Shown here: piece by piece, positions 56,000 through 63,937 of the stretch
How positions within the stretch are numbered: position 1 is the first letter of the stretch
Layout: each line of letters begins with the position of its first letter
NCBI GenBank assembly: GCA_003666325.1
Contig: QPIL01000121.1
Coordinates: 1-64,000, forward strand
DNA length: 64,000 nucleotides
Origin: Methylococcales symbiont of Iophon sp. n. MRB-2018
GTDB lineage: Bacteria > Pseudomonadota > Gammaproteobacteria > Methylococcales > Methylomonadaceae
Reading direction: 5' to 3'
Notes under the pieces: model-generated
The model's input: only the letters and a program-made list of their open reading frames with translations
Told to the model about the DNA's origin: nothing
The model's database searches: none
Program-made: the position numbers and the translations under genes

Positions 56000-56358
56000 C
56001 TTGACAACTAGCCACTCCCCTTAGAGTGATTCCTCGGTCAAGGCCGTTTGAATAGCAACAAGAGAATTAGTGCCTTTGCTTGCCATCGTTTGCAGCTAAC
56101 TTGATATGGCGAGACCTCAGCATAGCACAATAAACATGGGCATAAACCTCAGAACAAAAGCACCCTCGATACTTTTTGTCGCCCCATAAATGATATGATG
56201 AGCTCAACTGAAAATGTTTCTGCATCAAAAAAACTATAGAACCATGGTCATCGTGACTTACCCTATTCAATCAAAAGCACACAAAAAAAAGAAACTAACA
56301 CTTTTTCAGCTCCTTTTGTCCCCTAAATTAATAATTGAATAAACAGGATCAACTAGAA
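56000..56358. other. Gap between mltD and the desaturase gene
   Basis: It holds a solo family-A MITE end (GAGACCTCAGCATAG at 56111-56125) and otherwise nothing recognised. The minus-strand ORF at 56067-56270 overlaps it and is not supported. A promoter for the desaturase is expected here but was not clearly seen. Confidence 0.45.
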
Positions 56359-57456
56359 ATGCAAACTAAAACGGATGGTGATTTTCAACAAGAAAGTAGT
56401 ACGGATAAACCTTATTTGGCTGACTTTAAATCACTGACTGCTGAAATAAAACGTCGAGGACTCTATCAAAGAGATACTAAACGAGCCTATATTGAGCTCA
56501 TTGCTCATATTGTTATTTCTATTGTCGGCATCGCTCTATTTATTGTCTTTGACAACATCTTTAGCCGAATACTTTCTGCTTTAATTATGGCATCTGGTTT
56601 ATTAGGGATTGGCACACATACACATAACTCCTCACATAATGCCAGTTCTGAAAAAAACTCGATTGATGATTTTTTAACTTATCTTGGCTATTCGACCCTA
56701 TTAGGTTTCTCTGCTCTTTTTTGGAAATACAAACACTGCATTGTTCATCATAGCAATCCAAATATTCTGGGAATTGATGAAGATATCGACTTAATGCCCT
56801 TTTTTGCTATCACTGAAGATGATTTAAAAAAGGTAGGTAATTTAGGACATTTTTATCACAAGTTTATCCAGCCTGTTATTTTTCCTTTCATGATCAGTCT
56901 GACCGCTTTTAATATTCAACGCCAAGCATGGACCTTCTTGATTAAAGCCTTATTAGACAATAAAAAACGTAAAACCATACATTGGATTGATTTAGCTTAT
57001 AATCTGCTACACATATTAGCTTGGCTAATTATTCCTATGCTGTTTTTTCCCCCCATTGCGGTCATAGAATTTTATATATTAAGAAACGTACTGCTAGGCT
57101 ACGCCTTATTTTTTATGCTGGGTTCTTCACATTTACCAAGTGAAGCCGTTTGTAGCGTAGCAGATCAGCAACGTGCTGATTTCGCACTTAAGCAGACCGC
57201 TGCCACCATTAATATTAGAACCAACCGTTATGGTCGTTTTCTGATGTCGGGACTTGATTATCAAATAGAACATCATTTGTTTCGTGGAGTCAGCTATACC
57301 CGCCTACCAGAGCTTAACGAACTGGTAAAAGAATACTGTAGATATCAAAATTACCCACATAATACACTGGGTTTTTTTGAAGCTTCGTGGAAAACAATTA
57401 CGGTTTTTTACACACCAAAACCTGTACACACTGACCTGCAAAAGCTGATTAGCTAA
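56359..57456 (+). CDS. Membrane fatty-acid desaturase
   Basis: The 365-residue protein has four or so membrane spans and three His clusters: HTHNSSH, HCIVHHSN and the late QIEHHLF, which bind the di-iron centre of membrane desaturases and hydroxylases. The EHHLF-type third box and overall layout fit acyl-lipid or acyl-CoA desaturases. The ORF track starts at a TTG at 56335; an ATG at 56359 preceded by AGGATC is a better start. Substrate and double-bond position are unknown. A heptamer array begins directly after the stop codon. Confidence 0.85.
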   Translation: MQTKTDGDFQQESSTDKPYLADFKSLTAEIKRRGLYQRDTKRAYIELIAHIVISIVGIALFIVFDNIFSRILSALIMASGLLGIGTHTHNSSHNASSEKNSIDDFLTYLGYSTLLGFSALFWKYKHCIVHHSNPNILGIDEDIDLMPFFAITEDDLKKVGNLGHFYHKFIQPVIFPFMISLTAFNIQRQAWTFLIKALLDNKKRKTIHWIDLAYNLLHILAWLIIPMLFFPPIAVIEFYILRNVLLGYALFFMLGSSHLPSEAVCSVADQQRADFALKQTAATINIRTNRYGRFLMSGLDYQIEHHLFRGVSYTRLPELNELVKEYCRYQNYPHNTLGFFEASWKTITVFYTPKPVHTDLQKLIS

Positions 57457-59647: not shown

Positions 59648-61666
59648 ATGTCGATAAGAAAAATTCTTGTTACCAGTGCCTTACCCTATGCTAATGGACC
59701 CATTCATTTAGGACATTTAGTTGAGTATATTCAAACAGATATATGGGTGCGCTTTCAAAAACAACGGGGAAATAACTGTATATACGTTTGTGCGGATGAT
59801 ACTCACGGCACCCCCATTATGCTTCGTGCTGATGACGAAGGCATTAGCCCTGATCAGTTGATTGCCCAAATAGAACAAGAACATCGCGCTGATTTTAATG
59901 ATTTTGATGTATTATTCGATAATTATCACAGCACTCATTCCGAAGAAAACAAAGGCTTATCCGAATTAATATACACGCGCCTACGCGATGCAGGTCATAT
60001 TAGCAAACGCACCATTACCCAGTCCTTTGATCCAGTAAAAAACATGTTTTTACCTGATCGTTTTATCAAAGGCGACTGTCCAAAATGTGCTGCCAAAGAC
60101 CAATACGGCGATAATTGTGAAGCCTGTGGTGCTACCTATTCCCCGACTGATCTAAAAAATGCAGTCTCAGTCGTGTCTGGTGAAAAACCTATAGAAAAAG
60201 ACTCTGAGCATTACTTTTTTAACCTGGCTGATTTTACTGACATGCTGAAAGACTGGACAACAGCAGAAGGCCATCTACAGCCTGAAGTCAAAAACAAAAT
60301 GGCAGAATGGTTAGAAAATGGCTTGCAACAATGGGACATTTCCCGTGATGCACCCTATTTTGGCTTTGAAATTCCCGATGCACCAGGCAAATATTTTTAT
60401 GTTTGGATGGATGCCCCTGTGGGTTATATGGCCAGCTTTAAAAACTTCTGCAAAAAACAAAACCTCGATTTTGATGCGTTTTGGGGGAAAGACAGCGATG
60501 TCGAACTTTACCATTTTATAGGTAAAGATATTATCTACTTTCACGCCTTATTCTGGCCTGCCATGTTAAGTGGTGCGGGCTTTAGGACACCTAGCGCAGT
60601 ATTTGCTCATGGTTTTTTAACCGTCAATGGTGAAAAGATGTCTAAATCGCGTGGCACATTTATCAAAGCACGTACTTATTTAGAACATCTAAACCCTGAG
60701 TATTTACGCTATTATTTTGCCGCAAAATTAACCAATAGCATTGATGATTTAGACTTGAATTTTGATGATTTCAGCCAACGGGTTAATTCTGACCTAGTCG
60801 GAAAAGTCGTTAATATTGCCAGTCGTTGCAGTGGTTTTATTAAAAAACGCTTTGATGGAAAATTATCAGCAAGCTGTGCCGAACCCGACTTATTTCAACG
60901 ATTTATTGATGCCAACGAACCCATAGCGGAACTCTATGAAAATCGTGAATTTGGCAAAGCCATGCGGGAAATTATGGCATTAGCCGATAAAGCCAATCAA
61001 TATATTGAAAATAAAAAGCCCTGGCTTGTCGCCAAAGAAGAAGGCAAAGATGCTGAACTGCATGCCATTTGTTCGATGGGCATTAATTGTTTCCGTCTAT
61101 TAGTTGCCTATTTAAAACCTGTTATTCCTGTTCTGGCTAAAAATACAGAAAGCTTTTTAAATATTGAGCCTCAGGTATGGCCAGCAGATGCCCAGCCTTT
61201 ATTAGATCATGCTATTAACCCATTCAAACCATTAATGACTAGGGTTGAAGCTGACAAAATTGATGCCATAGTTGAAGCATCCAAAGATAATCTGCAAAAA
61301 ACCAAAGCACCCAAAGCCAAGCAATTCGATCCTATTGCTGACACCATTGAGTTTGATGACTTTGCCAAGATTGATTTGCGTATCGCCAAAATTATCAAAG
61401 CAGAACAAATAGAAGGTGCTGAAAAATTACTGCAATTAACGCTGGATATTGGTGATGAAACACGCAATATCCTAGCTGGAATCAAGTCTGCTTACGCAGC
61501 CGAAGAGTTAAAGGGAAAATTAACCGTAGTAGTCGCTAATTTAAAACCCCGAAAAATGCGTTTTGGTTTATCCGAAGGCATGGTTTTAGCAGCGGGCCCA
61601 GGCGGTAAAGATTTATGGATACTATCCCCAGACCAAGGCGCACAAGCTGGAATGCGTGTTAAATAA
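59648..61666 (+). CDS. metG: Methionyl-tRNA synthetase
   Basis: MetG charges tRNA-Met. The HIGH-like motif [14 protein letters not shown] is at 14-27, the zinc knuckle [18 protein letters not shown] is near 146, the KMSKS loop is [11 protein letters not shown] near 335, and a C-terminal tRNA-binding OB domain covers about 570-672. Full-length dimeric form (672 residues). The Hcp-like gene begins 14 bp after its stop. Confidence 0.96.
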
Positions 61667-61680
61667 TTTAAAGGCGAAAA

Positions 61681-63354
61681 ATGTTTTGTTATCACTGTCA
61701 AGAGGCTAAAAAAAACATTGTTTGTGATGTTACTGGCATCTGTGGCAAAAAAGAAGATGTCTCCTGCTTACAAGACTTATTAATGTATAGCATTAAAGGA
61801 CTGGCTTTTTATGCCCACAAGTCATTAGAATTCGACATTACTAAAACTAAAACAGATCAATTTATTGCCAAAGCTTTATTTTCAATGGTCACTAATGTCA
61901 ATTTTGATGAGGCAGACTTTGTGGCATTAATCGCTGAGGCAAATCAACGTAGAAACTCCCTACGCACACTTTTTTTGGCTGCTTATTTAGAAAAATATAA
62001 ACTCGCTTTTTCTGCAAGCATTCCCAAAGAGGCGCAATGGCAGTTTGACACTATCGACCAAGAAGCCTTTGTTGAAAAAGGGGCTGCTGTCGTTATTAAC
62101 AAAGACACTATTGACGATGAAGATTTACATGGTATACAGGAATGTCTGCTATACGCCACAAAAGGCTTGGCGTCACTAGCCGTCCATGCCCGTGAGCTTA
62201 ATGCAGAAAATCAAAATCTCTATCATTTTATTTATGAGGCTTTAAACTTTACCCTGCAAACTGGCAATAGTGTTGGCTCTGCATTAGCTATGAACATTAA
62301 ATGTGGGGAAATGGGCATTGCTGCCATGCTCATGCTGGATAAAGCCAACACCGCTCATTTTGGTCATCAACAACCGACGACTGTGCATAAAGATGTCTGG
62401 GACAAACCAGGCATTCTTGTTACCGGTCATGACATGCAAGATATTAAAGAGTTACTGCAACAAACAGCAGGAACTGGTATTGATATATACACACATGGAG
62501 AAGCCATTACTGCTCACGCTTATCCTGCCTTTAGAAAATTCTTTAATCTCGCTGGTAATTATGGCAATGCCTGGCAGGATCAACGCATCCAATTCAGTAA
62601 ATTCAAAGGCCCTATTCTAGTCAGCACCAATAGTATCCAACAACAAAAAAAGGATTATAAAGATAAAATATATACCACCGGCATGGTTGGCTGGCCAGGA
62701 GTACAACATATTGCAGATAGAAAGCCAGGACAAAGTAAAGACTTCAGTCAGCTTATAGAACAAGCCAAAACATCTGAAGCACCTACCTTATTGGTAGCAG
62801 GAAAAGTCAGTGTTGGCTATGCACATCATGCCTTAGCTGAATTACTGCCAGCCATTACCAAAGCCATTAATAACGGAGATATAAAGCATATTATTGTTTT
62901 GGCAGGATGTGATGGGCGTCACAAAGAACGTCGTTATTACACCCAGCTTGCCGAAGCCTTACCCAAAAAGACCCTTGTTTTAACAGCAGGTGACAACAAA
63001 TACCGTTTTCATGATCAGGACTTTGGTTTTATCAATGCTATTCCCCGTTTACTGGATGCAGGACAAAGCAATGACTTTATCTCTATTATTCTATTTTTAC
63101 AGTCCCTGCAAAAATCATTAAACTTACTGCATTTTAATGAACTACCCGTCTCCTATAACATTGCCTGGTATGAACAAAAGTCTCTCATCATTGTCTTGGG
63201 CTTGTTGTCAATGAACGTTAAAAACTTGCGACTTGGTCCAACTTTACCCCCATTTTTCAATGCAAATATACTCACATTATTAGCTGAAAGATTTTCCTTA
63301 AAAGGCATAGATACTGTAGAAAATGATATTGTTGCAATGATGGACGGCTTGTAA
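61681..63354 (+). CDS. Hybrid-cluster-protein-like (Hcp) protein lacking three cluster cysteines
   Basis: The 557-residue protein follows Hcp over its whole length. The N-terminal motif C3-x2-C6-x8-C15-x5-C21 for a [4Fe-4S] cluster is intact. Of the hybrid-cluster ligands known from Desulfovibrio vulgaris, His (H250), two Glu (E274, E498) and the persulfide Cys (C410, in AGCDGR) remain. Three are changed: S318 (STNSI for TTNC), D438 (TAGDNKYR for TAGCAKYR) and S463 (AGQSND for GQCND). The positions align with constant offsets, so the loss is real. Hydroxylamine or NO reduction by a normal hybrid cluster is unlikely. The RnfB-like gene follows 13 bp later. I leave out the symbol hcp for this reason. 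Confidence 0.85.
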
Positions 63355-63367
63355 GCACGCTTTATCA

Positions 63368-63937
63368 ATGAACAGCGTGAGCGTCGAGCAAATAGAAGCC
63401 TTATTACCTCAGACACAATGCCAAAAATGTGGCTACCAAGGCTGTAAGCCTTATGCTCAAGCGATTAGCCAACAACAAGCCAATATCAACCAATGTCCTC
63501 CTGGAGGACAGCAAGGTATCCTTAATCTAGGCAAATTATTAGCTGTGGCTGCAACCCCGCTTAATACACAATTTGGCATAGAAAAACCTCGACAAGTTGC
63601 CGTTATCATTGAACAAGACTGTATTGGCTGTACTAAATGCCTTCCACCCTGTCCTGTGGATGCCATCATCGGTGCCTCCAAACAAATGCATACGGTGATC
63701 ACTTCTGCCTGTACTGGTTGCGAACTTTGTGTCTCACCTTGCCCTGTTGATTGCATTGTCATGCAAACTATCGAAAACAATGACAAACTGGCTGAATGGA
63801 ATAAAGAAAAAGCGGATTTGGCAAAAAATAGCTATGCTAAAAAAACAATTAGAATAGAACGATTAAAGACCGAGAAAATGCAGCGTATTAAAAAACAAAA
63901 ACTGGCATTGAAAAAAATAAAATCAGACAATCAATAG
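63368..63937 (+). CDS. RnfB-like ferredoxin without membrane anchor
   Basis: The 189-residue protein has the RnfB Fe-S domain ([17 protein letters not shown]...NQCPPGG) and two ferredoxin-type [4Fe-4S] motifs ([16 protein letters not shown] and [16 protein letters not shown]). The hydrophobic N-terminal helix of normal RnfB is missing; the protein begins [15 protein letters not shown]. The C-terminus is a Lys-rich helical tail of about 55 residues. No rnfA, C, D, G or E is in the window. It probably passes electrons in the cytoplasm, perhaps to the Hcp-like protein encoded 13 bp upstream. It could also belong to a distant Rnf operon. Confidence 0.85.

Follow-up and report, generated by a model that had tools for sequence, protein, structure and literature searches.

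HcpX, a conserved class I Hcp homologue of Methylomonadaceae with replaced hybrid-cluster cysteines

One gene in the 64,000-nucleotide stretch of DNA analysed here (the window) raises the question of what an Hcp-like protein does once the cysteines of its hybrid cluster have been replaced. Annotation pipelines label the product of this gene, for which we coined the name hcpX, hydroxylamine reductase, and it passes the NCBIfam 'equivalog' cut-offs; judged by its sequence, it is a conserved paralogue of Hcp that lacks the ligand set by which the annotated enzyme is defined. The relevant features of the window are as follows (Dv, D. vulgaris Hcp).

59648..61666, + strand: metG, methionyl-tRNA synthetase, ending 14 bp 5' of hcpX
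61681..63354, + strand: hcpX, 557-aa Hcp-like protein, a class I Hcp homologue without three of the four hybrid-cluster cysteines
61687..61743, + strand: codons of C3, C6, C15 and C21, the N-terminal [4Fe-4S] cysteine motif with class I spacing
62428..62430, + strand: H250, equivalent to the hybrid-cluster ligand Dv H244, present in 35/39 clade members
62500..62502, + strand: E274, equivalent to the hybrid-cluster ligand Dv E268, retained in 39/39
62632..62634, + strand: S318 in place of Dv C312 (clade: S 38/39, N 1/39)
62908..62910, + strand: C410, equivalent to the persulphide cysteine Dv C406, retained in the window protein (clade: C/T/Y/A/G)
62992..62994, + strand: D438 in place of Dv C434 (clade: D 33/39, E 6/39)
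63067..63069, + strand: S463 in place of Dv C459 (clade: S/T/N/A/G/I/V)
63172..63180, + strand: E498 (Dv E494, 39/39), Q499 and K500 (Dv K496; K in 19, Q in 18)
63368..63937, + strand: RnfB-like two-[4Fe-4S] ferredoxin of 189 aa, starting 13 bp 3' of hcpX, a possible electron donor

The hcpX gene and its product

The translated frame is open over 557 codons with no internal stops, as the preliminary description had stated. HcpX is homologous to Hcp along its entire length according to profile matches with NCBIfam NF003658 (632 bits, cut-off 367), TIGR01703 (568 bits) and Pfam Prismane (PF03063; 418 bits). Residues were mapped by a phmmer alignment of HcpX with D. vulgaris Hcp (1e2u), which is gap-free around the ligand motifs and reproduced both the ligand offsets proposed earlier (+6, then +4) and the intact C3/C6/C15/C21. 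The GC and GC3 values of hcpX (0.391 and 0.337) match those of metG (0.402 and 0.333), which led us to reject a recent foreign origin of the gene.

The AF2 model of HcpX, built from the clade alignment, has a pLDDT of 88.5 and a pTM of 0.90; residues 1-22, the cubane loop, lie below a pLDDT of 50, and AF2 places no cofactors. The best PDB match in Foldseek was Dv Hcp (1e1d; TM 0.93, rmsd 1.6 Å), followed by 8cnr, 1gn9 and E. coli Hcp. Besides this fold, HcpX has in common with the class I Hcps (D. vulgaris, 1e2u/1w9m; M. thermolithotrophicus, 8cnr) the 3/6/15/21 spacing, H244, E268, E494, T71, W292 and N311, and it lies on the same side of the tree. It differs from them in that C312, C434 and C459 are replaced, C406 and K496 are not conserved in the clade, and T9 is changed to A, H283 to N, A497 to T or S, Y161 to L and A469 to L. 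The class II Hcps, which occur with Hcr in E. coli and many Methylomonadaceae, belong to the same Prismane family and have the same overall fold, but they are ~40% identical to HcpX and have another N-terminal spacing, full ligands, an adjacent hcr and a NorR or CRP/FNR-type regulator. HcpX has neither the cubane-motif insertion nor the adjacent hcr of class II. Nor does it resemble a Ni,Fe-CODH, for which PDB matches have a TM of ~0.55 and the equivalent cysteines are missing in HcpX.

Distribution, phylogeny and selection

Prismane matches were present in 68 of the 201 Methylomonadaceae genomes sampled and fell into two groups plus one further class I copy. The HcpX group (41 genomes) is ~53-94% identical to the window protein, the class II group ~38-41% and the single canonical class I copy 48%. 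Among the samples searched, HcpX was restricted to Methylococcales genomes from six genera of one family, and samples of the order, class and phylum yielded it nowhere outside this family. Scanning GTDB r220 gave 32 loci whose record titles name Methylococcales, except for one labelled Gammaproteobacteria only; the titles include Methylobacter luteus and M. marinus, Methyloprofundus, and symbionts of Bathymodiolus, of Gigantopelta and of a Hymedesmia sponge, and most of them would suggest marine habitats. Loss of the cysteines comparable to that in HcpX was found in none of 54 other Hcps from the class and phylum samples, in which other phyla are represented by three solved structures alone, and among the open-access papers searched, none describes a clade of cysteine-less Hcps. 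As a separate observation, a genome of another Methylococcales family contains, adjoining a full-length Hcp, a second, partial Prismane match (G245:C1:2169562-2170752, L193; profile positions 140-554, 249 bits), possibly class III.

HcpX might be a regulatory or structural partner of canonical Hcp in an obligate heteromer, since 19 of the 41 carriers also encode a class II Hcp and one a class I Hcp. We consider this very improbable: about half of the carriers, some of them near-complete or single-contig genomes (G049, G023, G123, G115), are without a canonical Hcp, and the characterised class I and II Hcps are monomeric (PMC10210160). HcpX is the sole Hcp match in the B. platifrons gill-symbiont assembly (G115) and the single Prismane protein of the window genome (2.09 Mb, 98.6% complete).

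In a midpoint-rooted tree built without the four cysteine columns, HcpX formed one side of a branch with an SH-aLRT support of 100 and a stem of 0.43 changes per site. All 39 distinct sequences with the cysteine replacements fell within it, so the pattern marks a clade. HcpX grouped with the Dv, Mt and Dd Hcps on the class I side (SH-aLRT 100), and the class I cysteine spacing 3/6/15/21 was found in 38/38 HcpX sequences with the N-terminus present. HcpX would have arisen once, in the lineage of Methylomonadaceae-type methanotrophs.

The nearest canonical relative, with a weak support of 92, is a class I Hcp (L067:7267-8934, G041:C13) that retains all ligands and is 57.5% identical to D. vulgaris Hcp. 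Its host genome is a Methylococcales genome that also carries HcpX, and it is the only such class I Hcp in the family sample. The two proteins share H5, N at Dv 283 and H31, L067 keeping the four cysteines, and from these residues L067 looks like a relative of the HcpX ancestor. The gyrA on the L067 contig is 74-83% identical to other Methylococcales gyrA. Elsewhere, the gyrA at L191:2-4096 (G015:C2:1466600-1470800), and likewise that of G095:C120, carries an in-frame insert of ~450 residues that begins '...GDCFVKGALVHTEQGLKAIETIKVGEKVL' and ends 'HEFLVQGCAVHNC' ahead of 'IGKYHPHGD'; by inspection this is a GyrA intein, and it is missing from G041, G063, G049 and the window genome.

The preliminary description had held that the gene is not decaying. 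One could imagine that hcpX is a pseudogene, or is decaying, in a symbiont with a reduced genome, given the small size of the window genome and the nearest HcpX pair, which has the highest dN/dS (0.21). However, metG is likewise raised in that pair (0.12), and this parallel shift points to a genome-wide effect; the HcpX/metG ratio of dN/dS is not raised in the window lineage. Moreover, genomes of 4-5 Mb from free-living organisms have identical replacements, and no stop codons were found among the HcpX matches listed. Across HcpX pairs dN/dS was 0.07-0.21, ~1.3-2 times the values for metG in these pairs, with no sign of the relaxed selection that would have spoken for decay. Taken with the six-genus monophyletic clade, the open frames, the invariant cubane cysteines and a fixed acid at position 434, these values leave decay a negligible probability.

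Ligand positions and the former cluster cavity

We aligned 93 distinct full-length sequences, 39 of HcpX and 54 of other Hcps. C312, C406, C434 and C459 were all present in 54/54 other Hcps, and the complete set of seven ligands (H244, E268, C312, C406, C434, C459, E494) was likewise found in every one of these and in none of the 39 HcpX sequences. The cysteines at 312, 434 and 459 were missing in 39/39 HcpX as compared with 0/54 other Hcps, and the gap-free motif alignments excluded a shift to nearby positions in every clade member. The count of three replaced cysteines out of four given previously holds for the window sequence; clade-wide, the fourth (C410) is dispensable too, position 406 being C in 22, T in 9, Y in 4, A in 3 and G in 1. 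The N-terminal [4Fe-4S] motif is identical across the aligned clade members, E268 and E494 are invariant, and 434 is always D or E.

Parsimony on the HcpX tree separated these positions as follows: First, 434 and 312 required one change each (zero for 434 if D and E are taken as equal), and E268 and E494 required none. Second, 406 and 459 required 7 and 8 changes, against a median of 4 per site. By this measure, two of the ex-cysteine positions (434, 312) are constrained to new residues and the other two (406, 459) are released, which speaks against the rebuilding of a cluster at these four sites. The pocket is also not fully fixed, since H250 is missing in 4/39 and K500 is replaced by Q in 18/39. 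Meanwhile, 50 of the 83 positions that are invariant in canonical Hcps are retained in HcpX, including C3/C6/C15/C21, T71, E268, W292, N311 and E494, so that keeping E268 and E494 says little by itself.

Fe-S clusters can be ligated by Ser and Asp. HcpX could in this way hold an atypical Fe-S or Fe-S-O cluster on Ser, Asp and Thr ligands and remain an Hcp-like NO or hydroxylamine reductase, particularly as a His, two Glu and one Cys persist in the window sequence. The CODH/Hcp superfamily tolerates exchange of active-cluster ligands, as in CooS-V (PMC10502027, PMC13056359). However, several members have Ala, Gly, Ile, Val or Tyr at 406 and 459, residues unable to ligate Fe-S, and we regard this explanation as unlikely. 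The nearest precedent for HcpX is the CODH variants with changed ligands (PMC6344411, PMC13056359): CODH-V (CooS-V) and other ligand-exchanged CODHs of the same superfamily have repeatedly changed the active cluster (PMC6344411, PMC13056359, PMC10502027), although CODH-V swaps the cluster type and keeps its cysteine ligands, whereas HcpX is without the cysteine set.

All three Hcp classes conserve the seven ligands of the hybrid cluster (PMC10502027), and E268, E494 and residue 434 should therefore line one cavity, where three buried carboxylates would favour a cation. The arrangement of E274, E498 and D438 with H250 and S318 would suit an O/N-ligated metal, and an empty pocket fits it just as well. 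In the latter case HcpX would be a metal-free pseudoenzyme that keeps the cubane or the fold alone for an electron-relay, binding or sensor role, with a solvent-filled former active site. In the HcpX clade the catalytic residues are gone and purifying selection, which is strong, persists, the usual signature of a pseudoenzyme, although the remodelled site may have a new activity; two of the four ex-cysteine positions and the equivalent of the catalytic lysine vary freely. On the other hand, 434 is without exception acidic and the glutamates at 268 and 494 are invariant, and an empty pocket would offer no reason to hold three carboxylates around one cavity. We take the pseudoenzyme as quite possible, though short of probable.

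The simplest reading is that the hybrid cluster has gone and that its cavity now serves another purpose, most probably the binding of an O/N-ligated metal connected to the cubane, the empty pocket being nearly as likely. We give about an even chance to HcpX being a neofunctionalised class I Hcp paralogue that has kept the cubane, lost the hybrid cluster and taken up another metal in the cavity. In such a protein, the N-terminal [4Fe-4S] cubane would still carry electrons, and the former cluster cavity (E274, E498, D/E438, mostly H250, and S318) would bind an O/N-ligated ion or pair of ions (Fe, Mn or Zn) that may be oxidised or reduced by the cubane. With the hybrid cluster absent, HcpX would not act as an Hcp-type NO or hydroxylamine reductase. 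The more specific proposal, that a non-Fe-S metal centre with carboxylate and His ligands, wired to the [4Fe-4S] cubane, has taken the place of the Fe-S-O hybrid cluster, is put forward tentatively. From the residue patterns, the loss of the hybrid cluster and a maintained function of HcpX are strong inferences; the nature of the replacement metal, the partnership with the ferredoxin and the reaction are conjectural.

Gene neighbourhood and biological context

The order metG-hcpX-rnfB recurs in four genera (g1, g16, g19 and g29). Where hcpX is missing from a genus, metG and rnfB adjoin or lie nearby, and the adjacency of hcpX and rnfB is absent in Methyloprofundus (g20) and in parts of genus g8. 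In Methyloprofundus, hcpX is followed by a gene for a 163-residue UPF0114-like membrane protein and often by fumC (named by inspection). We rejected a reading of function from the operon, because metG and rnfB also adjoin where hcpX is missing and because Methyloprofundus has hcpX at another locus, which makes the neighbours a weak clue. The electron donor would be a general ferredoxin, plausibly the adjoining RnfB-like protein. In the nearest relative, a sponge symbiont, a transposase-like ORF (L033:4273-4650, G001:C21) lies directly 3' of hcpX and rnfB is on another contig. The window also holds, at 56335-57456 (+ strand), a fatty-acid-desaturase-like ORF with a TTG start and the histidine boxes HTHNSSH, HHSNPN and QIEHHLF.

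The class II hcp genes have hcr downstream and NorR- or CRP/FNR-type regulators upstream. No hcr was found adjoining hcpX, and no Hcr was found in the HcpX-only genomes checked, where the matches were weak (~23-41% identity) and mostly partial. The 38 hcpX upstream regions contained no FNR/DNR sites, the best having 2 mismatches, unlike several class II hcp loci that served as the positive control and carry TTGATnnnnxTCAA-like sites with 1 mismatch, three of them near -80. Membership of HcpX in the NO-stress regulon was rejected on this basis, and its role appears to be housekeeping rather than NO-induced. The missing Hcr partner and the missing NO-type regulator site further weigh against an atypical cluster with retained reductase activity. 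Because the hybrid-cluster ligand set is gone clade-wide and Hcr is missing from the HcpX-only genomes checked, a new function is likely. The initial interpretation is thus well supported where it denied decay and likely where it proposed a new function; its different metal centre is possible, as a hypothesis.

In freshwater Methylobacter, the canonical hcp-hcr pair is an NO reductase of the NO and hypoxia response (PMC6977074). High transcription of 'one of two hcp homologs' in Methyloprofundus INp10 was interpreted as hydroxylamine detoxification, and Methyloprofundus members and mussel symbionts were scored hcp-positive in a genome comparison (PMC8788690). In HcpX-only genomes, the hydroxylamine-detoxification reading depends on a protein from which the catalytic ligands are missing. 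The HcpX clade is a natural experiment in which an Hcp/CODH scaffold has changed or lost its active-site metal cluster, with both versions within the same genomes. If the exchanged metal centre is true, it would represent an active-site type new to the Hcp/CODH superfamily, and HcpX would be a new metalloenzyme of aerobic methanotrophs.
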